Of a stretch of 64,000 nucleotides of DNA, positions 39,027 to 62,480 are shown piece by piece (position 1 is the stretch's first letter; each line of letters opens with the position of its first letter). The position numbers and the translations under genes were made by a program. The stretch is from Candidatus Alloclostridium intestinigallinarum (GTDB taxonomy: Bacteria > Bacillota > Clostridia > Christensenellales > UBA3700), in assembly GCA_904382605.1 (NCBI GenBank), contig CAJFJA010000005.1, forward strand, positions 66,529-130,528. Direction: 5' to 3'. The notes beneath the pieces were generated by a model that saw nothing but the letters and a program-made list of their open reading frames with translations, was not told the origin of the DNA and did no database searches.

Positions 39027-39057
39027 GCGGATACGGCGCAAAGCCGTATCCGCTCTT
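39027..39057 (+). terminator. Terminator of carA-carB-dapF
   Basis: GCGGATACGGC and GCCGTATCCGC form an 11-pair stem, followed by TCTTT. The stem resembles the one at 62215-62249. Confidence 0.8.
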
Positions 39058-39173: not shown

Positions 39174-39202
39174 TTGCCTTTCTTGTCGAATAGTGGTAGA
39201 AT
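39174..39202 (+). promoter_or_regulatory. Promoter of the 11-gene operon
   Basis: TTGCCT at 39174-39179, 17 bases, TAGAAT at 39197-39202. Transcription would start near 39209, which rules out the upstream GTG at 39193 as the start of the next gene. Confidence 0.8.
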
Positions 39203-39234
39203 ATGTATTGCATAAAAATATCGGGGGAACAAAA

Positions 39235-41316
39235 GTGCCTGTCACATTAAACGTCAGTATTGATTTGGGCAGCGACACCATGAAAGTCGCCTACGCTTTC
39301 GAATACGAAGGCGCGGTATATTACGGTAAAATTTCCAAAAAAGGTCTGCCTACGGAAGTCGCGATTCCCGCTGTCGCATACTACGACACCCAGTCCAAGG
39401 CGTGGAGCTACGGTTACAACATATCCGGCAGAAGAAGCGCGTCTTATACCACAGTGGTCAAAATCAAATCGCTTATCAATCTGCTTGCGCCCGTGCCCTC
39501 GGGAAGCGGCGGAAGGAAACAGGCGGCGGCTATACGCAATCGCAACGGAATGTTTTACAACAAGGGCACGAATTTTCCCAAGTTTTATTTCCCGGTAAGC
39601 AGGAGGATACTCAGCGACTTCAACGAGATGGTCTCGATGGATATGACTTTCGACGCCGCGCCGGCCACTCCGAAACGGATATGCGAGGAGTTTTTCAAGT
39701 ATGCGGCGGAGCTGGTGGAAGAGCGCGTTTCCGCACTCAGGGACAAAATGCGCGCGGAGATAGAAAGGAAGGGCGGAAATGGCGGGGACTTCAAGTTTGC
39801 TCGCGGCATAAAGCTGGCGGTGGTATATCCTTCCGGCGCGGGCAAGCAGGTGCAGGCGGAAATTGCGCGGCTTGCGGAAAAGGCGTTCGGCGTCGCGCCG
39901 GACAAGACGCTGAGTTCCACCAAGGCGCTGAGCATATACGCCCGCTACCGCGGCAAGATATCGAGCGGAGATTCCGCGCTGGTATTCGATATGGGCGAAA
40001 CGGATATATCCGTGGCGCGCGCATACGCCGACAATAACGGAGAACTCATCATCGACGGGGCGGACGGTCACAGCGCGCCCTGTGAAATAGGCGGCAACGA
40101 CGTGGACAGGGCGGTGTCCGAGTACATCGAAAGCGGCGTTCACGGCAGAGAAACCGTGGGCACGCCCTCTTTCGGACAGGAAGGACATATAGTCGAAAGC
40201 GGGCTGAGGGAAAAACAGTACCTTCTTATGAAGGATATCAAGAAGGCGAAGATATTTTTGAGTATGCCCGAAAGCACGGATATTTTCCCCGAAGGCGTGC
40301 CCGTCAATCTGGTCAGGGATCTGTGCATCCCGCGCAATCTGACGCGCGGCAGCTTCACCGCCTGCATAGGCATAGGCGGAAAGAAAGCTGGCGTTGCAGG
40401 GGAGATAGCCGCATATATATTGAACGAACTCGCGCTTGAGATAAACGTGGGCGTGAAGAAGGTGATAATCTCCGGCGGTCTTGCGGAGACGTACGGACTT
40501 CTGGACTACATCAAAAAGGCGGTCGGGCGCAATCATCCCGACGTGCGGATAATCACTTTCGACGACGAAACGACAGGTTCGGACGGCTTTTCGGTGGGTT
40601 CGTACGAAGATTCCACCTATGCCGCCGCGGTGGGCGCGGCGATAGTTGCGCTCAAAAACATCGACGTCAAGACGCGCCTTTCCCTGTCGTACGCCTCGTG
40701 GGTGTATCCCCGTTACAGGGAGTCGTGGGAAAACGAGCGTTACAGGCACAAGACGCTCAAAATCATCGCCGACAAAGGTTCGGTGGTGGAAGGGGAAACG
40801 GTGTTCACAATGGGCTGCTCGCTGGGGCTGAGCAACGGCACGGTGGAGGCTACGGAAGGGGACGAGATATACTCGCTCACCGTGGAGAAAAGCCGGATAG
40901 ACGGCATAATAAGAAGCCGCAGGGAGCTTGCCGGCCAGCACTACAATAACAACCTTTTTATAGAAAAATCGGGCGATTACGTCACCGCGGCGGAGCGTAA
41001 ATGGAGGGCGAATCTGGAAAAATATCTGGGTCTGAAAGTGGTTTCCGGCGGCAGGGATTCGCGCATCCTCTACTACCACAACGGCATACGCGTCAGACTT
41101 GTGAACAGCGAGATAATCTACCGCGAAGGCGTAAAGGTGGACAAGGACGGCAGGGCGCTGCCCATCATCATGAACGACAAACCGGAAAACGAGGGAATCG
41201 CCGCGGCGGTCAACTATCTGATAAACGGCAAGTGGTCGGGCGTAAAAGTCGTGCCCGCAAAAGAGATAGAGCTCAGGTTCGAGGGCATGGAAGAATTCGA
41301 TATAGCGGGGGAATAG
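39235..41316 (+). CDS. Hsp70-like actin-fold ATPase
   Basis: It has 693 residues. The N-terminal part follows the Hsp70 nucleotide-binding domain: phosphate-1 loop VSIDLGSDTMKVAY, a ...AVVYPSG strand, phosphate-2 loop LVFDMGETDISVA at about 248, an IGGNDVDRAV segment, a KKAKIFLS helix, and adenosine motif KKVIISGGLAE at about 408. About 220 residues follow that do not look like the standard substrate-binding domain, although a beta-strand block (VVEGETVFTMGCSLGL) is present. I start it at the GTG at 39235, with GGGGGAA upstream, because the promoter excludes the earlier start. It is the first gene of the operon. It probably acts as a client-specific chaperone ATPase; no DnaJ or GrpE is nearby. 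Confidence 0.8.
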   Translation: MPVTLNVSIDLGSDTMKVAYAFEYEGAVYYGKISKKGLPTEVAIPAVAYYDTQSKAWSYGYNISGRRSASYTTVVKIKSLINLLAPVPSGSGGRKQAAAIRNRNGMFYNKGTNFPKFYFPVSRRILSDFNEMVSMDMTFDAAPATPKRICEEFFKYAAELVEERVSALRDKMRAEIERKGGNGGDFKFARGIKLAVVYPSGAGKQVQAEIARLAEKAFGVAPDKTLSSTKALSIYARYRGKISSGDSALVFDMGETDISVARAYADNNGELIIDGADGHSAPCEIGGNDVDRAVSEYIESGVHGRETVGTPSFGQEGHIVESGLREKQYLLMKDIKKAKIFLSMPESTDIFPEGVPVNLVRDLCIPRNLTRGSFTACIGIGGKKAGVAGEIAAYILNELALEINVGVKKVIISGGLAETYGLLDYIKKAVGRNHPDVRIITFDDETTGSDGFSVGSYEDSTYAAAVGAAIVALKNIDVKTRLSLSYASWVYPRYRESWENERYRHKTLKIIADKGSVVEGETVFTMGCSLGLSNGTVEATEGDEIYSLTVEKSRIDGIIRSRRELAGQHYNNNLFIEKSGDYVTAAERKWRANLEKYLGLKVVSGGRDSRILYYHNGIRVRLVNSEIIYREGVKVDKDGRALPIIMNDKPENEGIAAAVNYLINGKWSGVKVVPAKEIELRFEGMEEFDIAGE

Positions 41317-41323
41317 AAGGACT

Positions 41324-44143
41324 ATGGCAGAAAGAAATTTCAACATAAAAGTCGACGGCGCCGCCTTTGATGGGGATATGCAGAGAAGCGGCATTTCCAC
41401 GAGCAAAAAGGCGTTCGACAGGGACGTGTACGAAAACAACAAGGCGGTGGAAGAGCTGGACAGATACGACGACTTCGGCTTTTTCAAGATTGACCCTTCC
41501 GCATACGCGAGCGACGGCGGGGAATACGGAATCCCCGTAAGGCGCGGCTTCAACGACGACGTAATTCTGGGACACCAGAGGGTGGCGGCGCTTTCCTTCC
41601 TGCGCGATCTGCGCGGTTTCGGCCTGCTTGCCGACGTGGTCGGCAGCGGAAAGACGTACGAAGCGTGCGTGGTTCTGAGCGAACTTGCCGCAAGGGATAA
41701 ACTGCACTCCATACTGCTCATAATTCCCGACCAGGTGTACAACACGTGGAAAGAGGTGCTGGAAGTGCAGTTCGGTCTGGGCAAGGGCGTACTGTACGAG
41801 GCGGGCAGAAATCTCGACGCGGGAAGCATAGAGTGCGACCATGTGGGCGACGGGATTCTGCGCCCCAGGCGTCCAATGATAGTCAAAACGGAAGATTTCG
41901 TCACCTGGCACGAGGACGCGCAGCGGCTGCTGTTCGACGTGATAGTCGTGGACGAGGCGCACCACCTGTGCGCGGAAGAGGGCAGATACGCCAAGGCGAT
42001 GAAACTGCTTTCGCTCATGATACAAACCAAAAAGAAGGCGGATTCCACCTACTGTCTGTTACTTTCCGCCACGCCCCATACGGGCAATCTGGAGCATATG
42101 TTCCGCCTGTGGTATTTTATCCGTTGCAGCGGCGGCAATCCTTCCGACTTTGACGAGAAGGACGATATGAAGCGCAGCGAGCAGTACCGCAAGGAAAAAG
42201 AATACTATAAAAACCATATATGTTACGGCGCGACCACCGTTATGGAGTTCATCAAGAAAGTGAAGATGAAAGTGGTGGCAGAGGAGTATTCCGCGGAGTT
42301 TGAAAAGTATCTTGCGCGGGAAAAGGTCAGACCGGAGAATTTCGAAAAACTGACCGAGGGCGAAAGATTCCTGTACGTGCAGGGCTTTCTGAAAGACAAC
42401 GCGGAGATAAGGAAAAACGTGCTCGACCGCGTGGCAAGCGCATACCACAACGGCGTACTGCGTTCGATAATGATACGCCAGCCCAATACCATAGCAAAGA
42501 GCAAGGTGCTGGACAACTACCTGTTCTTCCCCATGGCGGAAGAGCCGGGCGTTATCCGGACGGAAGGCATTCTGGGCGACAAGGTGGAAGTGGACCTTGC
42601 CGATCTCTACTCGGATACCGCCGTGCGCACGCAGGACGGGGAGAAGATGTCTTTGAGAAAGTATCTGGAAGACAACCGCGGCAACAGGGAATTCACCCAG
42701 GTGTACGCGGAGATGCTCAGCGCGCACGTTATAAACAAGGTGGGTACGCCCGAAAGCATATTTGCCAAGAAAAATTCGGGCACTTACTACGGCAGCCAGA
42801 TGGGACAGATAAACCCCGACGAGGCGCGTTACAGGTTGGTGCCGTACAAGTACGAAGCGGACGGTTTCGCCCATAAAATGGCGGTGGCTAAGGAGATTCT
42901 GGCAAAGCACGAAGGCAAGCGCGTGCTGGTGTTTTTCGACTACGACGTGAAAGACCCGTCCGCGGTTGCAAAGCGCTTTGAAGAAGAGCTGAAAGCGGAC
43001 GGAAGATTCGCAAAAAGGCTGCTCGTCGGCGGCGCGCTGAACAAGAGCAGAACGGTGGAAAAGTTCAACAAGACGGAAAACGCCGTGCTCGTGGTGGAGG
43101 ACCCGTCCTTTACCGAGGGCGTGAATCTGCAGGCTTCGAGCACGATAATCAACTTCGAAGTGACCCCCGACCCGCTTTCCATGGACCAGCGCATAGGCAG
43201 AATATTCCGTCTGGGACAGACGGAAAAACAGGTGCATATCTATTCGCTTGCGGACATGAACAGGCTGGAAGGATATGTGCTCATGTACTTTTTGCGCATA
43301 GGGCTTATGTTCAGCAACAGCGGCGACGCCACGATAATCGCGGGCAGTAACAGCGAACGCATGGTGACGGTGCGCTGTCCCGCGTGCAAGAGCGTAAGAC
43401 TGTATTCGCTGGAAGATTACGAGGCGAAAAAGAAGAAGGGCGAACTTTACTGTAAGGAAACGCCTCTTTGCAGGCAGTACGATCCGAAAGGCACGCTGAT
43501 GGAAGAGATAAGCGTGTACGACTTCAAGTGCGGCGACTGCGGCAAGGTGTTCGCCCGTTCGGTCACGGAAGAAGGCTATATGTGCCTTGCCGCCAACAAC
43601 GGCAGCGGCGGCGTAATGCGCAACAGCGGAGAGGCGGGTGACAGGAGCGTTTACTGCAGTAAGATATGTGCAATGTCGCACTGTTCTTTCTTCAAAAAGC
43701 AGTGTAAGGAAAACGGCGACGACTGGTGCCCCGCGCTGAAAGCGTACAGGGAAACGCCGGAAATAGGGGACGCCGACCTGGACTTTTTGTGTTACAACTG
43801 TCCCAACCGCTACGAATGTCCCGACGAGTGCAAGCTGTGGGTGAAGGACGGCGGCGGACTTGTCAAGGGCAAAAGAGCGATAAAGGCGTGCGGCAGCTGC
43901 GAGTATGCCGAATGCCACCCCAAACCCCACGTGCTTTCGTTCAACGAAAAGTGGGAGGCGGACTGTCCCGTATGCGGAAAGGGAACGCTCCGTCCGATAG
44001 TGGCGCGCACGTTCGCAACTTATATACGCGCGGCGTGGAAATACGAGCACGACGGCGGCGCGGCGTTCTGCAACAATCTGCTGGCAGAGGCGGATAAGGT
44101 GGCGGACATCAAGGAAATTTTGGCTAACGACAGGACGGATTGA
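41324..44143 (+). CDS. Snf2/RapA-type SF2 helicase with cysteine-rich C-terminus
   Basis: It has 939 residues. The ATPase core is complete: GHQRVAAL (Q-like), motif I ADVVGSGKTYE (residues 103-113), motif II VVDEAHH at about 208, motif III LLLSATPHTG, motif V GVNLQASS and motif VI QRIGRIFRLGQ at about 621. These enzymes translocate on double-stranded nucleic acid or remodel protein complexes on it. From about residue 682 there are many CxxC pairs (CPAC, CGDC, CYNC, CGSC, CPVC), enough for several zinc sites. This tail is not part of standard RapA. It starts 7 bases after the Hsp70-like gene and abuts the next gene. Confidence 0.85.
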   Translation: MAERNFNIKVDGAAFDGDMQRSGISTSKKAFDRDVYENNKAVEELDRYDDFGFFKIDPSAYASDGGEYGIPVRRGFNDDVILGHQRVAALSFLRDLRGFGLLADVVGSGKTYEACVVLSELAARDKLHSILLIIPDQVYNTWKEVLEVQFGLGKGVLYEAGRNLDAGSIECDHVGDGILRPRRPMIVKTEDFVTWHEDAQRLLFDVIVVDEAHHLCAEEGRYAKAMKLLSLMIQTKKKADSTYCLLLSATPHTGNLEHMFRLWYFIRCSGGNPSDFDEKDDMKRSEQYRKEKEYYKNHICYGATTVMEFIKKVKMKVVAEEYSAEFEKYLAREKVRPENFEKLTEGERFLYVQGFLKDNAEIRKNVLDRVASAYHNGVLRSIMIRQPNTIAKSKVLDNYLFFPMAEEPGVIRTEGILGDKVEVDLADLYSDTAVRTQDGEKMSLRKYLEDNRGNREFTQVYAEMLSAHVINKVGTPESIFAKKNSGTYYGSQMGQINPDEARYRLVPYKYEADGFAHKMAVAKEILAKHEGKRVLVFFDYDVKDPSAVAKRFEEELKADGRFAKRLLVGGALNKSRTVEKFNKTENAVLVVEDPSFTEGVNLQASSTIINFEVTPDPLSMDQRIGRIFRLGQTEKQVHIYSLADMNRLEGYVLMYFLRIGLMFSNSGDATIIAGSNSERMVTVRCPACKSVRLYSLEDYEAKKKKGELYCKETPLCRQYDPKGTLMEEISVYDFKCGDCGKVFARSVTEEGYMCLAANNGSGGVMRNSGEAGDRSVYCSKICAMSHCSFFKKQCKENGDDWCPALKAYRETPEIGDADLDFLCYNCPNRYECPDECKLWVKDGGGLVKGKRAIKACGSCEYAECHPKPHVLSFNEKWEADCPVCGKGTLRPIVARTFATYIRAAWKYEHDGGAAFCNNLLAEADKVADIKEILANDRTD

Positions 44144-44148
44144 CGCTT

Positions 44149-45855
44149 ATGAACGAAATATTGATAGGTAAAGAATATAAGAGCGCGTTCGACAGCGTAC
44201 TCAAACTGCTCAAACGCAGCGTGAGTTACGGCGACGTGCACGTGAAGGAAGTGGACGAGCGGGCAAAGCGCATAGTCACAAACACCTGCGTGTTCAGATA
44301 TTCCGAAAACGCTTCGTCGTCGGAAAATCCCGCCAGGGCAATGTGCTTTACGCCGTCGGGCGCAAGCTGGTTCGAGGGGCTGCGCAGCGGCAAAAACGAC
44401 GCGGGCGACGGCACGGCGCAATGGCTCGGCTTTATAGAAAGCGTGGCAAAGGCGTACCACAGGGAATATTCCCTGCTTGAATTCAAACAGCCCGACAACG
44501 CCGTGAGCGAAGAGGATATGCGCAGATGCCGCGCCGTTCTGGAAAAGGTGCTCGAACTGTTTTTCCCTTCGCTCAAAGGCGTGCAGATAGCGCGCGCGGA
44601 CGGGAAGAGCGAGCCGGACGACATATACGGCGTTTCGCTGAAAACGGAGATGTCGGGCGGAACGGGCGCGTCCGTGCCCGTGCTGGGCAGCGTGTACTTC
44701 CGCAGGCGCGGAAACTCTGCGGAAGGAAAGCTCAATCCGGTAGTCGCGGAAGAGGCGGCGGAAATAGCCGCAAGTCTTTACGCGGCAATACCCGAAAGCG
44801 GCAGGGCGGACGGCGCGGACAAAACAGGCTCCACACGTCTTATAGACTCGGTTATTCTCGCCATGAGCCGTCTGCTGGGCGGAAAGATGAGCCATTCTTT
44901 CGGCGAATGCGTGAACTTCGGGGAAAAAGACGAAGAAGTCATCGGCGAGCTTACGGAAAAACTTTCGCACGACGGCGCGTGTCTTGAATGCCGCAACATA
45001 ACGGTGCTGGGAATTTCGCACGTGCGGTGGAGCAACTCCGCATTCTATGTTTACCGCGGGGAAAAGCCCGTACTGCGCGCCATGGTGGGGCTCAACGGCA
45101 GCGTCACGCTCATGTGCGAAAACTGCACGTCGGGCGGCGCGCTGATAGACAACGACAACATAGTGTGCAGGTATAAGGACGCCGGCGGCAGGGAAGTAAG
45201 GGAAAACATACGCATAAAGCCGAACGAGGAAAACCTGGGACTTACGGAAGAACAGATAGATAAAGTGCTGGAATACAGCGAAATATCCAGGCATTTGCAG
45301 AGCATAACGTGCGGCGAAAATCCGCGCGCGGAGGACGGCTGCACCCGCTGCGTATGTTCCGCCCAGCTGCAGAATCTGGGCACGGCGGACGAACCCGTGT
45401 GGAAGTGCAGGGACTGCCCTTATCCGGAAATAGTGTTCGAGGACGCGGAAGGGGAACTGCATTATACCCCGTCCATGCACTTTGCGCGCGATAAGATGAC
45501 CATGACGGAAGAAGAGGTCTCCGAATGCGTCTGCTGCGGCAGAAAGTTCACCGCGGCGGTGATGAAGGGCACAAATATGTGCCCGACGTGCAGGGCAGGT
45601 TCCCTTGACAGCGAGGAGGGCAAGAAGGGATACGCCAGGTATTCGGGACTGCTTTCCCCCGCCTTGCGCGTCAGGTATATCGGCAAAGTGAAAAGATGCC
45701 TTGAAGACGAGGATATGCTCGTGTTCCTGATGGGCGGCGACAGATATATTTTCGATAAAAAGGATTTGGAAAAGGACGGGTACCTTCCCGCGCCGGTAAC
45801 CCCGCTGCGCCGTAAACAGAAGGCGCAGAATGCGGGAAAGGAGGGACGTAAATGA
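44149..45855 (+). CDS. Multi-CxxC protein of unknown function
   Basis: I do not recognise it. It has 568 residues. The N-terminal 250 are mixed alpha/beta without a known motif. A possible restriction-like or zinc-dependent core could lie in 280-370 (CLECRNITVLGISHVRWSN, MCENCTSGG). The C-terminal third has cysteine pairs CTRCVC, CRDC, CVCC and CPTC, like the tail of the preceding helicase. The DNECR-like spacing of a nuclease is not evident. The start may instead be the TTG at 44140, overlapping the helicase stop. It overlaps the next gene by 4 bases (ATGA). Confidence 0.65.
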   Translation: MNEILIGKEYKSAFDSVLKLLKRSVSYGDVHVKEVDERAKRIVTNTCVFRYSENASSSENPARAMCFTPSGASWFEGLRSGKNDAGDGTAQWLGFIESVAKAYHREYSLLEFKQPDNAVSEEDMRRCRAVLEKVLELFFPSLKGVQIARADGKSEPDDIYGVSLKTEMSGGTGASVPVLGSVYFRRRGNSAEGKLNPVVAEEAAEIAASLYAAIPESGRADGADKTGSTRLIDSVILAMSRLLGGKMSHSFGECVNFGEKDEEVIGELTEKLSHDGACLECRNITVLGISHVRWSNSAFYVYRGEKPVLRAMVGLNGSVTLMCENCTSGGALIDNDNIVCRYKDAGGREVRENIRIKPNEENLGLTEEQIDKVLEYSEISRHLQSITCGENPRAEDGCTRCVCSAQLQNLGTADEPVWKCRDCPYPEIVFEDAEGELHYTPSMHFARDKMTMTEEEVSECVCCGRKFTAAVMKGTNMCPTCRAGSLDSEEGKKGYARYSGLLSPALRVRYIGKVKRCLEDEDMLVFLMGGDRYIFDKKDLEKDGYLPAPVTPLRRKQKAQNAGKEGRK

Positions 45856-48800
45856 AAGGTGCGACTTTGACGGAAAAAAGGCTGAAAAGCCGTAAGTGGC
45901 CTGTTATCGCGGCGGCGGCAGTCGCGGCGGTTGCGGACATATTCGTGATAACCGCGCTGGGCGTCGGAGGTTTCGGTGCGCGCTACTTCGTAATGCCGTG
46001 CCTTCTGCTTGCGCTGGATATTGTTTTAATCGCGCTGTCCGCCGTCACCAACTTCCGTTTCCGCTACTCGGCGGCGGTGTTTACCGGTTACGGCGTTGCC
46101 GCCGTGCTGTTTGGCGCGCTCGGCATTGTCATAGGCAAAGGTACCGGCTCCGGCTCGCCGCTGACAACCGCGGCAACGGTGCTGTGGCTGCTTATGCATA
46201 TTGTTACGGTGGCTGTCATTGTGCTCACTTCGCTTTATGCGGCAAAAATCAAAGGTTTTTCGTTTACCGTTGCGGCGGCTATGGCGGCGGTAGTACTGGT
46301 TGCGGCGCTGTATTCGGCGTTCTTATTCGACCGCGGCTTTTTCGGCCAGCAGTTCGGGGACGTACAGCGCACCCTGACATACCGCTACGTAAGCGAAACG
46401 GACTCCTACGAGGTGACCGGCGCGCTTGAAGGAAAGGGCGAAACCGCCGTCATACCCGAAACCTTCAACGGCAAGGAGGTAAGTTCGGTAAACGCGTCCC
46501 TTCTCACCACCGAGGGGATAAGCAGTATATATATACAGTCTGGCGCGGATACCGTCTTCAAGAACACGTTCGTGCTGACGGGATATACGGGCGGATATCC
46601 TTCAATCTACATCGACAAAGACGAAGTGGACGAATTCCGCACCGCGGTGTATGCGGCGGCGTATGAAGAAAACAGCGAGGAGTTCTTCTCCGCGGCGGCG
46701 AATATTCTTCCGTGCAATCTGGGCAGCGGCGAAGTGTACGTCATATTCAAATACGATTTGCAGTCTTACTCGCAGGTGGAAGGGGATATTTTCCCCACCT
46801 GGTTCGGAAGAGCGGGCGAAAGATTCGACATAAGCGTTTACGAGGACGACTTCCCCTACGTCATGCACTCGGATAAAACTTCCGACGTGGATTTGCACTG
46901 GAACTACCTGAACTTCGGCGGAATAATCTTCACCTCGCCCTCGGACGAGGCGGGCAACGACCTGTCGGGGCAGACGGTAAGGGAAGGGGTAACGGCGCAG
47001 GTCTCCTTTGAAAAGATATATAAGGTATATATAGGCGACGACAACGACGAGGTGTACGAAACCGCGCTTTCCTATAAGCAGACCCGGGTGGACGGAAAGT
47101 CCCTGGACTACCGCTACGCAGTGCCTAGCACCGCGCAGAATCTTATCGACGAACTTCCGGAAAGAGACGGTTTTACCAATAGCGCCTGGAATTATTCGTG
47201 GACGGAAGAGGGCATTGTGGACGGAATGGCGACATCGCTCGGCAGGCTGCTCGAAGACAATCCCGGCAGGGATTCGGTGATAATATATCCGCAGTGGAGA
47301 GTGAACGACGCGGAGATAGTCCTCGATTCCGTGCAGGGCGGCACTTCCTTTACATACGGAGATGAAATAACCCTGCAGGCGGACGCCACGGCTCCGGCGG
47401 AAGGTTTTTCGCTCGCGTACTCGTGGCGCGACGGCAACGGCACGATAGAGGGGGAAGAGGGCGAAACGCTTGACCTCGGCGTGCCCACTCCTTCTGAAAG
47501 CGGCAGATATTACGTGACGGTCACGGCAACCGCGCCGGAGATAACTTCTTTGCAGAGCGAAACGACCGTAAGCGTGCGCCTTGACGTAGCCAGGAAGGAG
47601 ATTACGCTGGAATGGACGCTGCCCGACACTTATACGGGCGCCACGCAGTATGTGTCCTGTTCGCCCGCGGAAGGGTCGGCAGTGGGCGATGACGTAATAA
47701 ATATGTCCGTGACGGGCAGCCAGTCCGTAAGGAATGCGGGAGATTACTACGTCAGAGCCGTTCTTTATACTTCTTCGGCGGAAAATTACACCATTGCGGA
47801 GGATTCCGAAAGCAGGAATTTCACGGTTGCGCCCGCGCAGGTGAGCGTTACCTGGGGTTCCGATGTGAGTTTCACCTATAACGGAAGCGACCAGTATCCC
47901 GCGGCAACGGTGAACGGCGTGGGAAGCGACGGCGATTTTGCCGCGGTCGTGAGCGGAACCGCGAAAGACGTGGGCACGCATACCGTTACCGCTTCTTCCG
48001 GCAACGGCAATTATATCATAACCAATCACACGGCGAAGGTGACGATAACGCCGCGCGAAATAACCGTGGGCAGTTGGGAGAACTCCCCGTTCATCTATAA
48101 CGGAAAGCGGCAGTATCCGCTTGCGACGGCGCTGAACAACGAAGTTTCCGGTGAAGAAGAAGACGTGCTTTCCGGGCTGGTGTATTCGGTGGAAGGCGGC
48201 GTGGACGCCGGCTCTTATACCGTGCATGCCGCATTGCCCGCCGGCAGCAATTACAGCTTCTCTTCCGCCCAGACGCACGGGTATTCCATAGCGAAACGCA
48301 CGGTTACCGTGTCCGGCTGGAGCGGCAGCACGCTGACATACAACGGCGCTTCCCAGCACCCGGTAGTGACGGGCATTTCCAATGAACTGGACGGCGACGA
48401 AGAAGAGATAATAGGCAATATCGTTTACAGCGGAGGCCAGACTAATGCCGGCAGCGGTTACCGCGTCACTCCTTCGCTGGATATGGACAATTACACGCTT
48501 TCTTCCGTGCCCTATACCTATTCCATAGCGCAGCTTGAAGTTACTCTGGTATGGAGCGACGCGGAACTGACTTATACGGGCGCGGTGCAGTATCCCGCCG
48601 TCCTGCGCGCCGAGGGCGCCGTAGAGGGCGACAATCTGGTCGAAAGTCTGACTTACAGGGTGACGACGGGCGGAATCAACGCCGGACTGCATACAGTAAC
48701 AGCCTCCACGACGAACGGCAATTACACGCTTTCGGACAGAACGCACGGCTACACTATTGCGAGAAAGGGCATATCCCTCACCTGGGAGGATGACAGAACG

Positions 48801-49256: not shown

Positions 49257-49266
49257 GGAGAGACGT

Positions 49267-51893: not shown

Positions 51894-51899
51894 CGGCGG

Positions 51900-53834: not shown

Positions 53835-53843
53835 GAGGGGGAT

Positions 53844-55727
53844 ATGGAAAGCGTAACCGACATTCTGGACAGTGCGAATTCCGTATATTACCGCTCCGCG
53901 TCCGCCGCGGAACTGAGGGCGCAGGAGGCGCGGCTTGCCGCCGCGATGAAGGACGCTTTTGTAAACGAAAAAAACAAAAGGAGTCTGGAAGGCCTTTTAT
54001 GGCGCGTCACGGCAAAGCGCCTTCTTTCGGAATATCTTGAAGGAAATTGCAGCGTGCAGACGGCGGAAGAGATAGCCGCCTTTGCGGAAAAGACCGTGCC
54101 CGCGGCGCGCGAAAAAGGGTACGGCAATACCGAAAGGATAATATCGAATGTATCCGCGTTGGTGCGGGACATATCGGAAATAATCAGCGACGCGCCCGTA
54201 CAGGCGGCGCGCGTAAGGTCGGACGACTGGAAGCCCATGACTTCGTCGAAGGCGGAGTGCGCGCAGGTGGCGGCGATATTCGACGAAAAGGCGGAAAAAA
54301 TAAACGGACTGCTCATTCCCGACCCTCTTTTCAACAAGGGCGTGGAGTTCGCCGATATAAAAGGCGTTGTCACGGCGGAGCTGAAAAAGGTGAGCGCGTT
54401 TGCGAAAAAGTGCGCCGGGGATATAAGAAAGAAGGAAGAGGAGCTGTTCATGCGCGGCGTGCGCGAGTTGCGCGCTTCCACCGATTTCGGCGGATACGCC
54501 TATTATCCGTCCCTGCCCGAGCATACGGGCGCGGTCGTGCTGAATACCCCGTTCATCGAGGAGGCGGAAATTGCCGCCGTATGCAACAATGCGGGCGCGG
54601 TATTCGAAGTCGGCGCAGACAGATTCGCCGGTATGGACGGCACGGATCTGGGCGGGATATTCGCTCGTTTCGCCGCAAAAAACGCGGCGGTGCTCATAAC
54701 TGATCTGGACAGCTATGAAAACGCCAACAAGAGGGATATAATAAGCGCCGCGGCAACATACGGCGCAAGCGGCGGAAGGGTATTTCTGACGGACGAGAGC
54801 GGTAAAGGGGTGCTGTCGGCGTGCGGCGCGGCGTATGAAAAAATTCCGCTCCCGTGCAGAGAGTACGCCGTACGCGTTTTCAGGGAAGAAGGACTTTTAT
54901 CCGAAGGGGAAGAGCTGCCGGACAGATATATGTTAATGGGGTATCTGGGCGTAAATCTCGCCGTGCGCGGGCACGAGGCGGGAAAAAGCTGGCAAAAGCC
55001 GCTAGACTGGCTGTGCGACGGCGGCAGAAAGAGGACGGCGTTCGTCTTTATGCGCGGCGCGGGCGGACAGCAGCCTTTTCTTCCGGAGGACTGGGGCGAT
55101 TTTACCGAGGAACTCGACAGTAAATTCGGCGGGAAAACGCCTTTCGATTACGCGTTTTTCGGGGAAGAGAGAGCTGAAACCATACAGACAATTATGGAAT
55201 CGAAAGCCTCGCTTGATAAAAAGTGCGCCATGCTCATCTCCTACGCCGCGGACTGCGACAACTCGCAGGCGCAGTGGGAGAAGCTGCCGGAAGAGGAAAA
55301 GAAGAAGAGGGTGACTCTTATGACGCAGCTTGTAATGCAGGCGCTGGGGACAGGGATAATTCCCGACGTGCAGTTCCACGACGACATGAGCTTTTTGGGC
55401 AAAGGCTATGAAACGGCGGCAGGAGTGTGCTGTAAAGGCGGAAAGGAGATACTGTTCAAAAACAACTGGGTGGAAATGCTCGATCAAGTTGCGGGCACTG
55501 CGGCTCATGAATGTATGCACGCCCTGCAACACGCTGCGGAAAGGAACGGCTGGCAGCAGTGGATGTGGGAAGAACTGGGCATAACGGAAGGCAGAGTCAG
55601 GGCATGGGAATATAATTCCGCACACTATATGGCGGTTATAGATTACTGGATATACCGCGTGCAGATTATGGAAACGGACGCAAACGCGTTCTCCGCCGAA
55701 TGCAAAAGGCATCTGCGCATTATATGA
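53844..55727 (+). CDS. Putative zinc metallopeptidase, paralog 2
   Basis: It has 627 residues and is a diverged paralog of the preceding protein: the same NSVYY start, the PDPLFNKGVEFADIK segment, GAAVLITDLDSYENANKRDI, and a C-terminal HECMH at 555-559 with METDANAFSAEC (Glu610). Both zinc motifs are intact, so neither looks like a dead copy. A strong AGGAGGGGG site precedes the ATG, so it may be made in larger amounts than paralog 1. A heterodimer or processing of two clients is possible. Confidence 0.75.
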   Translation: MESVTDILDSANSVYYRSASAAELRAQEARLAAAMKDAFVNEKNKRSLEGLLWRVTAKRLLSEYLEGNCSVQTAEEIAAFAEKTVPAAREKGYGNTERIISNVSALVRDISEIISDAPVQAARVRSDDWKPMTSSKAECAQVAAIFDEKAEKINGLLIPDPLFNKGVEFADIKGVVTAELKKVSAFAKKCAGDIRKKEEELFMRGVRELRASTDFGGYAYYPSLPEHTGAVVLNTPFIEEAEIAAVCNNAGAVFEVGADRFAGMDGTDLGGIFARFAAKNAAVLITDLDSYENANKRDIISAAATYGASGGRVFLTDESGKGVLSACGAAYEKIPLPCREYAVRVFREEGLLSEGEELPDRYMLMGYLGVNLAVRGHEAGKSWQKPLDWLCDGGRKRTAFVFMRGAGGQQPFLPEDWGDFTEELDSKFGGKTPFDYAFFGEERAETIQTIMESKASLDKKCAMLISYAADCDNSQAQWEKLPEEEKKKRVTLMTQLVMQALGTGIIPDVQFHDDMSFLGKGYETAAGVCCKGGKEILFKNNWVEMLDQVAGTAAHECMHALQHAAERNGWQQWMWEELGITEGRVRAWEYNSAHYMAVIDYWIYRVQIMETDANAFSAECKRHLRII

Positions 55728-55743
55728 AAGGGAAGGAGGAGTT

Positions 55744-58700
55744 ATGGAAGAATATCTCGAACCGTTTATAGAAGAACTGCTTCATATCGACGAGGGCGCA
55801 AGGAACAAGCTGATCGACCTGGGCGCCGGGGATAAGGGCAGTACATATTATCTTTCGCACTATATGTATTCCGACCTGGCGGGATATGCCCTGCGCGTCA
55901 TAAACGAGAGGATAGGCAAGCCGGGCAATACCGTTCTGCGCGGCTCGTGCGCGGCGGGAGAGCAGATAGTGGGCAGGAGAATAAACGACTTCGACTGGAT
56001 AGCCGGCGACGGCACCAAAAACCCCGCGGGGCTGGACGACTTTGTCAAAGCCATGCACAAGGAGCTGAAATTAAAGGGGAACAATCCGCTTTTCCTGAGT
56101 GTGGGCGCGCTCAGGTGGAAGGTGAACGTGACGGTTGACGAAGTGCGCGAAGTCACTTCCCCTCTGCTCATATTCCCCATCAGGCTGGTGAGAAGTTCTT
56201 CCACCACGCCCGTGTACATAGAGTTCGTGGACGACGACGCCTATTTCAACCCCTGTCTTATCCACAAGCTGCGCCGAACGCTTGTGCCCGAGGTGGCGGA
56301 AGGGTTTCCGCATCCCAACGGAAACGCGCTGTTCGACGACCCTGTCGATCTGGAAAAGCTGGGCGACGGTACGGAATATTTCGCCGCCGTGTCCGCGTAT
56401 GCGGAAAGTTGCAGGCGCGCGGATATAAATGCGGATACCGTATTCGAGTTCGATAAGGACGTAATCGCGATTGCGCAATACAACCACGACGATATATGTA
56501 TGTATTACGACATAAAGCGCAACCGCGACAGGATATACGCAAGTCCGCTGGTGAGGCGCGTATTTACGGAAAACACGCCCGGGGAAAAGGCGGGGACTAA
56601 AACCGTGCCCGACTTTGTCCTGCCTTACGACAGCGTGCAGGAAGATATGATACGCCGCGTGGTGAACGGCGAATCGCTTATTATCAAAGGACCGCCCGGC
56701 ACGGGCAAAACGCTGACCATAGCCAATATGATAGCGGCGCTTTTGTCGCAGGGCAAGAAGGTACTTCTGGCTTCAAAAAAGCTGTCCGCGCTGGGCGAAG
56801 TGAACGCGAAACTGCCCGAATCCCTGAGAAAGTTCGTAATGCTCATGAATTACGAAACGGAAAAACAGGCGGCAAAAATAGACCCGTCCGCCGTGCTCAG
56901 GGAATTCGGGGAGCTTGTGAAAAAGCGCAAGAGTTATACTTTCGACAAAAAACACGAACGCGACCTGGCGGCGGCGAACGCGGAAAAGGCTTCGGCAATT
57001 TCCTTCCTCGCCGGATATTACGAGGATATGTTCACGGGCGAAAAAATGCTAGGCGGCAGTTATTACGAAGCGCTCAACGTCTACCTTAAAAACAATCTGC
57101 CCGTAATAAACTTCCTTTCCCCCGCGGAAGCCGCCCGTGTGGACGTCAGGCATTACAACGAAATGTACAAACTCGTCGTGCGTGCGGCGGAGCACTTCAA
57201 CGCGCTCACCGGCGGCGGAGCCCATTCCGTCGCAAAAAGTCCCTGGCGCGGCGTGACCGTTGAAACGGACGCGGAAGGCGCGTTTGCGGAAAACTCCGCC
57301 CTTGCCCGTAAGGCGGAAAAAATAATGCCTTCCGTCCTGTCCCTTCTGGAGTGCGGCGATGCGGAAAAGGGCAAATTCCGTATCTGCGACATATACGAAC
57401 TCATGCGTTCGGACATGGGCAGGGAAGAGTTCGAAAAGACGACCGGCGGCGGCGCGGACTTTTCCGCCCTTGAAGCGGCGCTCGGAAAATACGAACTTTT
57501 CGCCTCCGCAAAACGCGACCTGCACGGCTGCGATACGGAAAAAATGCGCAGCGCCGTCGCGGCGGTTTCCGGCAACCTCGACAACGTCGCCGTTGCCGAC
57601 GTAAACAAGCTGGGCAAAAATATCGGAATATTCCTGTACGGCTCGGAGCCGGTCACGGGAGATATGCTTGCCCGTATGCTGGGGCTTATAGACGCAATAG
57701 ACAAAAACAACTCCGCCCGCGCCGCGCATATCGACGCCGCGCGCACGGTGTTCACGGAAGATGCGTGCAGGGAAAGTTATGCGCGCATATTGCAGGCGGG
57801 AGAGGCGCTTTCGCGTTACTTTGAAGGGGGAGAAAAACCCGCCGTGTTCGACTTCAGGGGCAAAAAGGCGGCGGAGGAAATGCGCGCGCTCAGCTTTTTG
57901 TCGGACGTCACTTTCCGTGAAACGGTGCAGGCGGTGAGGCAGATATGCCTGGCGAAAGAGTGCGACGACGATTCGGAAAAGCAGGTGCGTCTGCTTTGCC
58001 GACTTATGCGCAAGGAGATTACGAAAACCGACCTTGAATGTCTGTTTACGCTGAAAAGGGCGGCTAAGAAGGGCGGTATGGCTCCGGAAACGCTTATCGG
58101 AGAGATAGTGCGCATGGGCGCGCCCGTACGCGCGCTTGCCGAAGCGGCGGGACTAACCGATCCCGGCGAAATTACGGTGGGCGGGCTCAAAGCGGCGGCA
58201 ACGGCGGAGATATGTTTTGAAGAATTGGCGGAAGAAGCGGATAAAATCCGCCGCAAATTGAAGATAGAGGCCTGCGGAGGGGAGGAAGAATTCGCCCGCA
58301 CCGCGCTCGCCGCGCGCAGAACGTTCTCTCTTGCGCCCTTTGCATACGCTCCGGCGGAGGAAAAGTACGCCCGGCTTGTGAAACTGCAGGGCGCGGACGA
58401 AAGAATAAAGAGGGGGCTGGGAGAACTTATCGGCGGATTGCGCGCTTTCGGCGGCAGATATTACGAAAGCCATTACAGCCGCGTGCGCGCGGTGACCGTC
58501 GGCGATATGGATATATTCGTGCGCGAAGCGGAAAACAGAGACCTGCTTTCCGCCGCCGTAGATTACGACTGCATAGCGGGCGGACGGACCGTGCTCGCGC
58601 CCTTCTTTGAAAAATTCGAATCGGAAGAGGTAAAGGGCAATATCCCCGACGTATTCGAACACTCCTTTTACGGCATAATCACGGAAGGAAGAATGCGCGA

Positions 58701-60246
58701 AATGGGCGCAAACCGCAACGGTCTGGGCAAAAGGGTGGAAAGCTCGCTCAGAAGCCTTATGAAGGCGGAAGAAAAGATACAAAAGGCGACCGCCGCGATT
58801 ATAGAAAGACGGTGTATGGAGAGTATCGACCCCGACGATCCGCGCCTTGCCTTCGTGCAGGCGGAGCGCAATCCTTCCGCCACGTTGCGGTCGCTGTTCA
58901 AAAAACACCCCGACGGCATATTGCAGCTGAAAAAGTGCTTTATACTCACCCCGTCCACCGCAAGCGTCATTTTCCGCCCGGAAGAGTACGCGGACTTCGA
59001 CATAGTGATAGTGGACGAGGCAAGCCAGCTTGAACCGGTAAATCTGCTGCCCGTGCTGTTCAGGTCGAAGCAGTGCGTAATAGTGGGCGACGAGTGGCAG
59101 ATGCCGCCCATCAAGCACTTCGTGTCGCAGTACGAAAAGCGCGTTACGGGTCCCGACGGCAAAGAAGAAATCGTCCTCGAACCCGAACTTTCCGCGCTTA
59201 CGCTCGCTTTGCGCAACCAGGCTTTCCACGCCGAAGAACTGCTGTGCCATTACAGGAGCCGCACGGAATCGCTCATAGCGTTTTCCCAGCAGGAATTTTA
59301 TCCGCATATGCGCACCTTCCCCGCGTGCAGACCCAAGGGCGAAGGGCTCGGATTCAGGGACGTGTTTGTGGAGGGATTTTGCAAAAACGGCGTGAACGAG
59401 GAGGAAGCGCGGGCGATAGTGGGACTGATAAGGGAACACTTCGACAAGTATTACGACGAAAAGACTGGCGTGCTGGCGGAGTCCTTCGGCGTGGTCGCGT
59501 TCGGCGAAAAGCAGACAGAGCGCATAAAGGGACTTGTAGCGGCGGATAAAGAGCTTTACGAAAGGATGAACAGGGCGCTTGACAAGTTCGACGACGTGCC
59601 CGAAAAGCTCATCTTCTTCAAGACGATAGAAACCGTGCAGGGTCAGGAAACGGCGCATCTGTTCCTCTCCCTCACGTACGGCAGAACGCCGGAGGGCAAA
59701 GCGACGAACGCGTTCGGACAGCTCAACCGCGACAAGCTGGGCAAGTGCATCTTCAACGTGGCGGTGACCCGCGCGCAGTCGAGCGTAACTCTCGTGCACT
59801 CCGTCCACGCTTACGAGATAACGGGCGTCAACGTGTCGTATATCCACGATTATCTGGTAAAAGCGGAACTGTTTGACAGGGACGGTCTGGCGCAGTTCGT
59901 GTCGTCCGATCCGGGCAGGGGTTTTGTTTCGGACGTTGCGGATTACATAGCTTCTCTCGGTATAAGCCGCGACAGGATAGTGCTGGGTTACGGCGTGACG
60001 GAAGGGTCGGTAAAAATCCCCGTCGCAGTGCTTTCGCCCGACCTGAAACAGGCGCAGCTGGGAATCTGGTGCGAAACGCCCACGAAAAAGGACTATAATT
60101 ACCTTGATTACAATATGAGGTATTTCGACATTCTGAAAGAGCGCGGCTGGGAGATGTATCCGGTATACGCGCACGAATGGGTAAACAATGCCGAAGCGGA
60201 AAGGGATAACCTTGCCGCGGCGATAAAAAAATACGTAACCAAATAA
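55744..60246 (+). CDS. DUF4011-type SF1 helicase with degenerate terminal nuclease domain
   Basis: It has 1500 residues. The N-terminus has the DUF4011 pattern (FLSVGALRWKV, PLLIFPIRLV, NPCLIHKLR). The SF1 core follows: Walker A KGPPGTGKTLTI at about 315, then a long helical insertion of some 700 residues, motif II VDEASQLEP at about 1091, VGDEWQMPP, CHYRSRTESL, ETVQGQE and NVAVTRAQSS. The last 105 residues match the Vsr-like domain that closes many such helicases, but the usual acid-x-Asp and ECD signature reads KIPVAV and GIWCET, so catalytic residues are gone. It probably acts on nucleic acid without cutting. GGAGGAG precedes the ATG. Confidence 0.85.
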   Translation: MEEYLEPFIEELLHIDEGARNKLIDLGAGDKGSTYYLSHYMYSDLAGYALRVINERIGKPGNTVLRGSCAAGEQIVGRRINDFDWIAGDGTKNPAGLDDFVKAMHKELKLKGNNPLFLSVGALRWKVNVTVDEVREVTSPLLIFPIRLVRSSSTTPVYIEFVDDDAYFNPCLIHKLRRTLVPEVAEGFPHPNGNALFDDPVDLEKLGDGTEYFAAVSAYAESCRRADINADTVFEFDKDVIAIAQYNHDDICMYYDIKRNRDRIYASPLVRRVFTENTPGEKAGTKTVPDFVLPYDSVQEDMIRRVVNGESLIIKGPPGTGKTLTIANMIAALLSQGKKVLLASKKLSALGEVNAKLPESLRKFVMLMNYETEKQAAKIDPSAVLREFGELVKKRKSYTFDKKHERDLAAANAEKASAISFLAGYYEDMFTGEKMLGGSYYEALNVYLKNNLPVINFLSPAEAARVDVRHYNEMYKLVVRAAEHFNALTGGGAHSVAKSPWRGVTVETDAEGAFAENSALARKAEKIMPSVLSLLECGDAEKGKFRICDIYELMRSDMGREEFEKTTGGGADFSALEAALGKYELFASAKRDLHGCDTEKMRSAVAAVSGNLDNVAVADVNKLGKNIGIFLYGSEPVTGDMLARMLGLIDAIDKNNSARAAHIDAARTVFTEDACRESYARILQAGEALSRYFEGGEKPAVFDFRGKKAAEEMRALSFLSDVTFRETVQAVRQICLAKECDDDSEKQVRLLCRLMRKEITKTDLECLFTLKRAAKKGGMAPETLIGEIVRMGAPVRALAEAAGLTDPGEITVGGLKAAATAEICFEELAEEADKIRRKLKIEACGGEEEFARTALAARRTFSLAPFAYAPAEEKYARLVKLQGADERIKRGLGELIGGLRAFGGRYYESHYSRVRAVTVGDMDIFVREAENRDLLSAAVDYDCIAGGRTVLAPFFEKFESEEVKGNIPDVFEHSFYGIITEGRMREMGANRNGLGKRVESSLRSLMKAEEKIQKATAAIIERRCMESIDPDDPRLAFVQAERNPSATLRSLFKKHPDGILQLKKCFILTPSTASVIFRPEEYADFDIVIVDEASQLEPVNLLPVLFRSKQCVIVGDEWQMPPIKHFVSQYEKRVTGPDGKEEIVLEPELSALTLALRNQAFHAEELLCHYRSRTESLIAFSQQEFYPHMRTFPACRPKGEGLGFRDVFVEGFCKNGVNEEEARAIVGLIREHFDKYYDEKTGVLAESFGVVAFGEKQTERIKGLVAADKELYERMNRALDKFDDVPEKLIFFKTIETVQGQETAHLFLSLTYGRTPEGKATNAFGQLNRDKLGKCIFNVAVTRAQSSVTLVHSVHAYEITGVNVSYIHDYLVKAELFDRDGLAQFVSSDPGRGFVSDVADYIASLGISRDRIVLGYGVTEGSVKIPVAVLSPDLKQAQLGIWCETPTKKDYNYLDYNMRYFDILKERGWEMYPVYAHEWVNNAEAERDNLAAAIKKYVTK

Positions 60247-60259
60247 AGGAGGACAGCAT

Positions 60260-61030
60260 ATGTCACGTTTTCACGATCCGAGCGAAAAACCGGTAGAAGA
60301 GGGAATGGACGAAGGCGAACTTATCGCAAGCGAAATTACCATAAACAGGCAGAAGGAAGAGTATGCCGAACAGGTTAAAAGGCTGGCGAAGAAGGCGGCG
60401 GAGTGCACCCTGAAATACGGCGAGGACCACTATCTTACCGAAACCATGGTGATGTTTCTGGAAATGGCGCTGGAAATGCAGAACGCAATAGACATGATAA
60501 CCACCGCGCAGGTGGCGATAAGCACCATTCAGAAGGCGATCGGGGTCGTCAGGAACTCGCTCAACTTCAACAGTATGGTCATGCAGAACATCAGCAGCCA
60601 GAATATGGGCTTTTTCGCCCGCTTAAAGCGCAGGCGCGAGATGAGAAAGGCCACGCGCAACGCCGTAAATTCCATAACCACGAGCTTTGAAGAGATAATG
60701 GGCTTTTCCAAAATGTCGCAGGAAATGGTCGTGGCTTTGCAGGAAGTTATGGACAAGATGCACCGTTCCACCGCCAGAGCAAAGCGCAGAAGGCAGAAAA
60801 TGCAGCAGCGCAAGGAAAAGAGGAAGGTCAAGGAGGGCGTGGCTCTCGGACCCAGCCCCGCGAAGGCGCTTATCGACGAAGCCATTGCCGAACTTAAAGG
60901 CGAGGGCGGTTTTGAAGGCGGTGCGGCTCCCGCGGCGGGCGGAGTTGCCGGCGGAACGCCGGGCGGCGGTTCCAAGACTCTCAAGAGCAAGGGCATAGAC
61001 AATATAGACGACATAACCGGAGACGTATAA
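60260..61030 (+). CDS. ESCRT-III/Snf7-like helical protein
   Basis: It has 256 residues. Helices cover about 20-185: a first pair at 27-115, with A-rich heptads and the TTAQVAISTIQKAIGVV segment, then basic (RLKRRREMRK) and further helices to about 190. From 190 the chain is acidic, Gly/Ala-rich and probably loose, with a small helix AKALIDEAIAELKG at 201-214 and an acidic end IDNIDDITGDV. The size, basic helical core, loose tail and short C-terminal helix are those of ESCRT-III proteins such as CHMP1/CdvB, and the tail helix could serve as a MIT-interacting motif. Sequence identity cannot be judged by eye. The next gene, a Vps4-like ATPase, overlaps it by one base (TAATG), which supports the call. 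Confidence 0.6.
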   Translation: MSRFHDPSEKPVEEGMDEGELIASEITINRQKEEYAEQVKRLAKKAAECTLKYGEDHYLTETMVMFLEMALEMQNAIDMITTAQVAISTIQKAIGVVRNSLNFNSMVMQNISSQNMGFFARLKRRREMRKATRNAVNSITTSFEEIMGFSKMSQEMVVALQEVMDKMHRSTARAKRRRQKMQQRKEKRKVKEGVALGPSPAKALIDEAIAELKGEGGFEGGAAPAAGGVAGGTPGGGSKTLKSKGIDNIDDITGDV

Positions 61031-62187
61031 TGGCAGGCATAGGGAAAGTAAAAAAGGAAGACAAGGCGGAAGATTCCATAGAAAGCCTTGAACGGGAATT
61101 CGGCGAAAGCACCGATAAAATAAGGCAGCTGCTCGCCGGGAAGAAGGACAAGAACAGCATCTCCGAAGAAGTCAAGACCAAACTGCGCGCCGAGTATTCG
61201 CGCGCGGCGCAGATAGCGCGCACTCTTTCCCAAAGGGTGACCGACGAAGACGAGGTCAAAAAATACGAGGACTTTTTCAAACGGCTCAGCGATAGGGCGG
61301 CAAGCTACGGTTCGGTAATAAAAAGCCGCGTGCCCAAGACCACTTTCGACGACGTCAAGGGACTTGACAACGTGAAAAAGCTGGTAAAAAGCTTTATGTT
61401 CATGGCGCAGAATCCGGAGATACTCAAATATTATAAGCTGGAAGGCGGGCTGGGTATGCTCATGTACGGCGCGCCCGGCACGGGTAAGACCATGTTTGCG
61501 GAAGCCATTGCAAACGCCATGAATCTGCCGCTGTTCATCGTCACCCCGGCGGACATCTTCAAGTCGTATGTGGGCGAATCGGAACAGGCGGTAAAGCAGA
61601 TATTCCAGGAAATAGACGCCTGCCCGGAAGGAGCCATCTTATTCGTGGACGAATGCGAATCCATCTTCAGCCGCCGCAACCAGGACACCAAGGATTACAA
61701 GGCGGCAGTCACCACGGAGCTTTTGCAACGCATAAACGGCTTCGGGGTGGACGGCAGCAAACGTATTATGATTGCCGCCACCAACCGTCCCGACGTCATC
61801 GACCCGGCTTATCTGCGTTACAAGCGCTTTTCACATCTCATCCACGTCACTCCGCCCGACGAAGAGGCGAAACGCGCCATTATCGAAAGCAAACTTTCCG
61901 GCATCGCCCTGGACGGCATAACGGCGGCGGAAGTGCTGGATATGAGCAAGGGCGTAACTTATAAGGAAACGGCGCTGGGCATGGTCGCCGCACAGACGGC
62001 TTACTATTCCGCCGCAGACCTGTGCGGCATAATAGAGGAAGCCTGCCGTCTCGCCCTTGAAAAATTGCAGGAGAGCGGCTCGACAACGCCCATTCCGCTT
62101 ACGCGCGATATGTTCGAAAGGGCGTTCAAAAAGATACCGCCGAGCATTTCGCAGGAGCTTCTCGACGAGTATAATAATTTCAGATAG
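61030..62187 (+). CDS. Vps4/katanin-type AAA ATPase
   Basis: It has 385 residues. N-terminal residues 14-98 are helical, with the length of a MIT domain. The AAA module starts TTFDDVKGLDNVK at 104 and has Walker A GAPGTGKT (147-154), a pore-loop aromatic in KSYVGESE (Tyr180), Walker B ILFVDECES (Asp207, Glu208), sensor 1 ATNRP, and arginines at 263 and 266 in the finger region. The C-terminus ends FERAFKKIPPSISQELLDEY, the short helix typical of the Vps4/katanin/spastin group. In Vps4 such hexamers pull ESCRT-III filaments apart. FtsH, ClpX or Cdc48 are excluded by its single AAA module and ending. It is the last gene of the operon. Confidence 0.88.
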   Translation: MAGIGKVKKEDKAEDSIESLEREFGESTDKIRQLLAGKKDKNSISEEVKTKLRAEYSRAAQIARTLSQRVTDEDEVKKYEDFFKRLSDRAASYGSVIKSRVPKTTFDDVKGLDNVKKLVKSFMFMAQNPEILKYYKLEGGLGMLMYGAPGTGKTMFAEAIANAMNLPLFIVTPADIFKSYVGESEQAVKQIFQEIDACPEGAILFVDECESIFSRRNQDTKDYKAAVTTELLQRINGFGVDGSKRIMIAATNRPDVIDPAYLRYKRFSHLIHVTPPDEEAKRAIIESKLSGIALDGITAAEVLDMSKGVTYKETALGMVAAQTAYYSAADLCGIIEEACRLALEKLQESGSTTPIPLTRDMFERAFKKIPPSISQELLDEYNNFR

Positions 62188-62214
62188 GAGCTTCGCCCGA
62201 GCGAAAAACAAAAC

Positions 62215-62249
62215 GGCGGATACGGTATTGTGCCGTATCCGCCTTTTTA
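62215..62249 (+). terminator. Terminator of the 11-gene operon
   Basis: GGCGGATACGG and CCGTATCCGCC with a TATTGTG loop, followed by TTTTT. Confidence 0.93.
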
Positions 62250-62480
62250 TTTTCCTCTTGCTCCGAAGAGTAGCGCCGTCCGCAGGCGCAAGGGGCGGCA
62301 GCGTACTGCTCCCGGAACGTCCCGCGTTGCCGGGGCGGTGTGCGTTTACGAAAAACTTACAAAAAAATGTATTTGTATGATAGCGGGAAATTTTCGTCCG
62401 TTCTACAATTTTAAGTAAAGAAACGAAGAAGACAACTGCCCGGGGAAAAGAGCGGCCGGGGAGCGGGGAAAAGGTTGTAT

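Follow-up and report, generated by a model that had tools for sequence, protein, structure and literature searches.

A conserved eleven-gene operon in one order of Clostridia encodes a putative membrane-anchored multi-ATPase machine

Introduction

ESCRT homologues have been reported in archaea and not in bacteria, PspA/Vipp1 excepted (PMC11188069). CoCoNuT systems are defined by McrB/McrC homologues, and their type III-A extensions bring together Hsp70-like proteins, coiled coils, a UPF1-like helicase, and Cdc48-/FtsK-like add-on ATPases in one operon (PMC11090510). Other described systems contain the DUF4011 superfamily 1 (SF1) helicases Hhe, ProA, and PDC-S37, the Snf2-type proteins DrmD (DISARM), DpdE (Dpd), and BrxHI (BREX), or the AAA protein IetA/IteA (IetAS). 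Here, we describe an operon that recalls parts of all of these. It lies in a 64,000-nucleotide stretch of contig CAJFJA010000005.1 (hereafter, the window: the whole stretch of DNA that was analyzed) from the 1.8-Mb metagenome-assembled genome (MAG) of Candidatus Alloclostridium intestinigallinarum. Its eleven genes, g1 to g11, may encode one machine in which the AAA ATPase g11 would act on the short C-terminal tail of its helical neighbor g10.

The operon shares its assortment of parts with the CoCoNuT type III-A extensions, but it contains no genes for an McrB GTPase, McrC, or vWA proteins, and no McrB-type GTPase was noted among the extra open reading frames (ORFs) of homologous operons. Membership in the CoCoNuTs was therefore rejected. 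The g9 protein has the DUF4011-SF1-Vsr-like layout of Hhe, ProA, and PDC-S37. However, its scores stay well below the NCBIfam cut-offs for ProA (360 versus 1500 bits) and Hhe (247 versus 2000 bits), its nuclease is dead, and it is part of a large operon. The Snf2 protein g2 is of a type related to DrmD, DpdE, and BrxHI, its nearest PADLOC/NCBIfam relatives, but stays far below the cut-offs (DrmD, 109 versus 610 bits), and DrmA/B/C, a methyltransferase, and other DISARM partner genes are absent from the operon. The AAA core of g11 is similar to IetA/IteA, but scores 104 bits against a cut-off of 510, and no IetS (serine protease) partner was seen; general Cdc48 and CdvC models outscore the anti-phage models for this protein. 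MoxR-vWA ternary systems, judged by passages of their description, do not match the operon. In the literature searched, with most subscription journals outside it, no system with this gene set is described, in agreement with a first-pass annotation of the window, made from the sequence alone, which knew of none.

The g10/g11 pair resembles ESCRT-III/Vps4 (CdvB/CdvC) in that a helical partner, bearing a C-terminal motif behind a flexible linker, stands beside an AAA ATPase with a three-helix N-terminal domain, and in a weak Vps4_C similarity of g11. Unlike that system, g10 has no detectable ESCRT-III/PspA homology, g11 has no Vps4-type beta-domain, the g10 tail [IV]DDI[LV] has not been equated with either MIM consensus, leucine-rich MIM1 or proline-rich MIM2, and the pair is embedded among Hsp70, Snf2, zincin, and SF1 genes.

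Results

Conservation and modularity of the operon

In homologous neighborhoods, the order g1-g2-g3-g4-g5-g6-g7-g9-g10-g11 is kept wherever contigs are long enough, and conserved order was found in more than 30 loci, almost all belonging to a single order. Since it recurs across many genomes, the gene set is not a chance assembly. A profile of g3, the most specific marker, detected 21 carriers among 297 genomes of the order (Christensenellales-like Clostridia); a g7 search detected 12 in the same set, all of them within the 21. When GTDB was scanned with one genome per species, at least 38 orthologous g11 loci were found. Among the matches listed, all were in Clostridia-type MAGs, one of them named Bacilli and one Oscillospiraceae. 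One operon carrier, Candidatus Borkfalkia, belongs to the Christensenellales according to NCBI, and the window was assigned to this order on that basis. Beyond the order, the g3 profile gave two marginal matches only in a 391-genome sample of the class, and g7 gave one in a sample of the phylum. Within the order the operon is sporadic, and most of the family and of the order do not have it. The plasmids, phages, and viral contigs searched contained no copy and no viral orthologue, and a viral or plasmid origin was rejected on this basis. In comparison with the sister species, the operon genes are under purifying selection (nonsynonymous-to-synonymous rate ratio, dN/dS, 0.08-0.26), which is strong on g11 and g2.

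Eight genes (g1-g6, g10, and g11) form the core, and the g7-g9 module, encoding zincins and an SF1 helicase, is optional. Type A loci contain this module; in type B loci, g1-g6 are followed directly by g10-g11. Type B is found in a single genus within the same family, where the core is present in 13 of 17 genomes. It forms one clade (support, 100/98), with locus L060 apart, and the deep-branching loci are type A, which makes loss of the module the simpler reading. The first-pass annotation had asked for linkage of all eleven genes across Clostridia: homologues proved to be linked in conserved order and not scattered, but this holds for the eight-gene core, g7-g9 being separable and g8 a local duplicate.

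Some loci depart from these layouts. In the rearranged L060 (a Clostridiales MAG), an FtsK/SpoIIIE motor is fused to g6; the unit also holds an RNA-ligase gene (PF09414; 8172-8792) and a CvpA-like membrane gene (5394-6221). Genome G002 (L249/L250) has only g1-g5 in recognizable form, immediately upstream of hrcA-grpE-dnaK-dnaJ. In one type B genome, a second, tail-less g10-like gene lies between g10 and g11 (L049:9421-9987).

The separable module and the partial g1-g5 locus would fit independent stress or defense genes that merely share one transcription unit. We consider this highly improbable: even deeply diverged loci keep the gene order, the core genes remain together, and extra receptor domains vary jointly with tails on different proteins of the operon, as described below. 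Conserved order, co-occurrence, and purifying selection instead argue for one multi-part machine, as had been proposed for the window, and we regard the operon as a real, conserved, and apparently undescribed one.

A C-terminal tail and its candidate receptor

Gene g10 (60260..61030; like the other genes and signals of the operon, on the plus strand) belongs to the core. Its AlphaFold2 (AF2) model (predicted local distance difference test score, 70) has four helices (residues 18-53, 58-112, 118-185, and 200-216) and a disordered linker, and the protein ends in an NIDDI tail. The last 20 residues (60968..61027) read ...SKGIDNIDDITGDV. Generally, g10 sequences have a linker rich in G, A, S, and P and then, at the C-terminus or close to it, [IV]DDI[LV] or a similar motif. 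Core gene g11 (61030..62187) encodes a classical AAA ATPase, whose homologues have invariant Walker A/B motifs, sensor 1, and arginine fingers. At its N-terminus, AF2 predicted a domain of three helices (residues 17-35, 46-69, and 73-92).

The tail is present in 34 of 40 unique g10 proteins and in 21 of 25 clusters at 60% identity, versus 4 of 417 background ORFs (Fisher, 1e-40); since the motif was picked after inspection of g10 tails, this count describes conservation. More independent evidence comes from other proteins. The [IV]DDI[LV] tail was found on 6 of 34 g6 proteins (2e-5); among them are several type B proteins and the L060 FtsK fusion, which ends in ADIDDITR. Type A g6 proteins often have a different conserved acidic tail at the C-terminus. 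At locus L057 (JAFVYW010000146.1), a gene for 288 amino acids (aa) between g10 and g11 (7053-7919) is made up of the g11 N-terminal domain in triplicate. Among all ORFs examined, it was the only match outside g11 (E 8e-14), and it scores 49.4 bits with a domain model built without L057. The g9 protein of the same locus is the only g9 with an extension, by which it gained VDDIL and IDDIL tails. Tail recognition would predict just this, receptor copies and ligand tails being acquired together, and MIT-MIM recognition in Vps4 offers a parallel (PMC7240154).

Weighing against tail recognition, the g10 protein of L056 has no tail, those of L059 and L065 are atypical, and amplification of receptor and tails was seen at one metagenomic locus. 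On balance, ESCRT-like logic for g10 and g11 gains support, and we infer from the sequences that the AAA ring of g11 may bind and remodel tailed partners.

Relationship to ESCRT-III and Vps4

Could g10 and g11 be true, extremely diverged members of the ESCRT-III/Vps4 superfamily that carry out membrane fission? Several features would fit: the helix lengths, a basic stretch, the disordered linker, and the C-terminal motif beside an AAA ATPase with a three-helix N-terminal domain. In addition, Vps4_C was weakly matched by 32 of 33 g11 members (best E, 3e-7; window g11, 18.2 bits with a cut-off of 21.3), and the top nonsignificant fold matches of g10 in the PDB include many membrane-bending helical proteins, Vipp1 among them. 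However, none of these fold matches was significant (best, BAR/F-BAR/eisosome proteins at E >=0.14; Vipp1, E 1.0), and BAR-like matches arise by chance with long helical proteins. When 31 g10 members were compared with Pfam at E<=10, Snf7 and PspA were not among the 25 families listed, and hhalign gave a probability of 0.5% for g10 and PspA. Homology of g10 to ESCRT-III was rejected by Pfam and hhalign, and Foldseek gave it no significant support. With PF04012, PspA was not detectable in the host genome.

For g11, the Pfam families matched by most members do not include MIT. The beta-domain of Vps4 sits after the sensor-2 helix. No Vps4-type beta-domain is present in the g11 model, the sole inserted hairpin (residues 310-321) precedes that helix, and the AAA domain is closest to Cdc48 D2. 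Altogether, common descent with ESCRT-III/Vps4 is unlikely. The first-pass annotation had called g10 ESCRT-III-like and g11 Vps4-like; neither identity is supported, and what the tail and the three-helix domain argue for is a similar working logic of the pair.

Remaining gene products and expression signals

All eleven ORFs are co-directional on the plus strand, from ~39.2 to 62.19 kb of the window, with junctions of -4 to +16 bases and a purine-rich ribosome-binding site upstream of nearly every one. A promoter-like site at 39174..39202 (TTGCCT-17-TAGAAT, with TG before the -10 box) was assigned by consensus match only. The intrinsic terminator at 62216..62242, 3' of g11, is a GC-rich hairpin followed by the T-run TTTTTATTTT. 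The listed g1 start, GTG 39193, falls within the -10 box, and the true start is likely GTG 39235, behind GGGGGAA; that of g6 is probably ATG 50385. GC content (0.50-0.57) and codon use (r, 0.82-0.94) are neighbor-like, g6 standing slightly apart, and composition does not support a recent foreign import. Apart from the two starts, the annotated strand, signals, tight junctions, and composition were all seen again.

Core gene g1 (39235..41316) encodes a protein of the actin/Hsp70 ATPase fold; its likeness to Hsp70 consists of a weak DnaK profile match only (E 0.0019) and conserved phosphate-loop residues (DLGxD, GG). The g2 product (41324..44143; core) is a Snf2-family ATPase with a Cys-rich C-terminus (Pfam SNF2-rel_dom and Helicase_C). 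The core protein g3 (44140..45855) has multiple CxxC motifs with invariant cysteines and matched no Pfam or PDB entry and no known family. The sole membrane protein of the operon is the core protein g4 (45852..49256), in which five predicted transmembrane helices at the N-terminus are followed by about five MBG-like repeats with TYNG..QYP motifs; a Pfam search gave no match. The repeat number varies among homologues (990-1748 aa), and the repeat region is probably extracellular. The core genes g5 (49267..50385) and g6 (50385..51893) encode, respectively, a zinc ribbon (CEKC...CPNC) with weak Sel1 similarity and a coiled-coil protein with a conserved acidic C-terminus. PDB profile searches with g3, g6, and g7 returned nothing or coiled-coil noise, and g3, g6, and g10 have no convincing match to any known family.

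In the optional module, g7 (51900..53834) is a zincin with invariant HExxH..Q and ExDA..F. Its paralogue g8 (53844..55727; 37% identity) keeps both motifs and is limited to the window species and its sister (L032/G698). The g9 protein (55744..60246) combines DUF4011, a UPF1-like SF1 helicase, and a degenerate MTES_1575/Vsr nuclease domain. An active nuclease of this type would require Asp and Glu at motif positions where g9 reads RIPVAVLS...IWCE. Both residues are replaced in all g9 homologues with a readable motif (L068 is less clear), so the domain is interpreted as a structural remnant. Most of the product types proposed earlier hold: two zincins, Snf2, SF1, and AAA proteins, a dead nuclease, a five-span g4, and, by the weak DnaK match, an Hsp70-like g1. 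The ESCRT-III label is the part that was not confirmed.

Genomic site

The operon follows carB-dapF in the window genome and in the sister species G698. At 34936-38982 of the window, carB and a diaminopimelate epimerase (DapF) domain are fused into one 1348-aa protein, as they are in relatives. Two of six congeners carry the operon, which is absent from four further genera of the family. In G168, a congener without it, a Sir2-like ORF (L297:4669-5535; Pfam SIR2 E 2e-4, below the cut-off) occupies the site, and the gene beyond this ORF matches the gene after the operon in G698. Between window and sister, identity is 41-88% for operon proteins and 72-97% for neighbors, and dS of the operon tends to be higher. 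Together with the dN/dS values, this points to an operon that is functional, fast-evolving, and possibly exchanged.

A hairpin, GCGGATACGG-N7-CCGTATCCGC, flanks the operon at 39027-39053 and 62216-62242. Only one further copy in the genome (C6:75478) was found; it lies within a 106-bp repeat in common with the right-hand copy. Five congeners have none. The 27-bp hairpins were rejected as boundaries of a mobile unit because of this third copy in the 106-bp repeat and their absence from the sister. In the congeners G699 and G168, the major facilitator superfamily gene that comes after the operon in the window (62190-63983) adjoins a cation-transporter gene; in the window genome, that transporter gene lies close to the end of contig C6, next to the third hairpin. 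The repeat may thus mark a rearrangement or an assembly join. G698 also encodes, about 8 kb downstream of its operon, a protein (contig C4, reverse of L287-L289, 52383-53702) that looks TIR-like on visual inspection (VFISYRRADG...).

Discussion

We propose that the operon encodes one membrane-anchored multi-ATPase remodeling machine, an accessory chromosomal system of one order of Clostridia whose likeliest role is conflict with mobile DNA; we give this proposal an even chance. In the proposed machine, g4 would anchor the complex in the membrane and display its repeat domain outside. The Hsp70-like g1, the Snf2 protein g2, and the Cys-rich g3 and g5 may form a part that senses nucleic acid or protein, and the helical g10 and coiled-coil g6 may form an assembly. 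With its three-helix domain, the g11 ring would capture proteins by their [IV]DDI[LV] tails, namely g10 and, depending on the lineage, g6 or g9, and would then unfold or disassemble them, so that the logic would be that of ESCRT-III/Vps4 but the scaffold an unrelated one. A zincin and an SF1 motor would plug in between g6 and g10, a place taken in a single locus by an FtsK motor that is fused to g6. In this scheme, physical binding, unfolding, membrane action, and defense are all inferred, and the link between nucleic acid handling and membrane remodeling, suggested earlier for the window, has g4 as its single membrane part.

A conflict role is favored because the ATPases resemble anti-phage proteins, the distribution is patchy, and the g6-g10 slot is swappable: among curated models, three ATPases (g2, g9, and g11) match anti-phage families. 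The Sir2-like ORF at the operon's site in G168 and a divergence between sister species that exceeds that of most neighbors also speak for defense. Several results weigh against it. The operon contains no intact nuclease, the phage, viral, and plasmid searches gave no copy, and g2, g9, and g11 fall far short of the curated family cut-offs. One genus keeps the core at mostly unchanged flanks. Moreover, among 100 downstream flanking ORFs, PADLOC matches were single and scattered, the Pfam families were mostly metabolic, and neither defense genes nor mobile elements were enriched across loci. The first-pass annotation had suggested a check for neighboring defense genes; what was found was housekeeping flanks and no defense islands. 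The option of defense that it had named is still plausible but unproven, with neither an active nuclease nor an island to support it.

The same machine may instead serve to build or turn over a structure of the envelope, the chromosome, the cell surface, or DNA transport, a serious alternative to which we assign a somewhat lower probability. Several observations would fit such a function: in one genus, 13 of 17 genomes keep the core, with largely conserved flanks; g4 is a surface-type membrane protein with a variable repeat number; in L060, g6 is joined to an FtsK-type DNA translocase; a nuclease and a defense island are lacking; and purifying selection on g11 and g2 is strong. However, most of the family and order live without the operon, which is therefore not essential, and the nearest curated relatives of the recognizable ATPases include anti-phage proteins. 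Of the two, conflict seems to us slightly more probable than a function in the envelope or in DNA transport.

More tentatively, bacteria without detectable PspA may have evolved an independent ESCRT/Vps4-like machine, in which an AAA ring would disassemble tailed helical polymers by way of an autonomous three-helix tail receptor, with Hsp70, Snf2, and exchangeable modules (SF1, FtsK, or protease) coupled to it at the membrane. This is a possible reading that we hold with considerable doubt.

The operon represents a 23-kb machine that is conserved in an order of gut bacteria and combines parts not known to cooperate. If the system acts in defense against mobile DNA, searches based on defense islands would have missed a large modular system, because it lies outside such islands. 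If tail and receptor interact as proposed, an ESCRT-like turnover logic would have arisen in bacteria on a separate scaffold.

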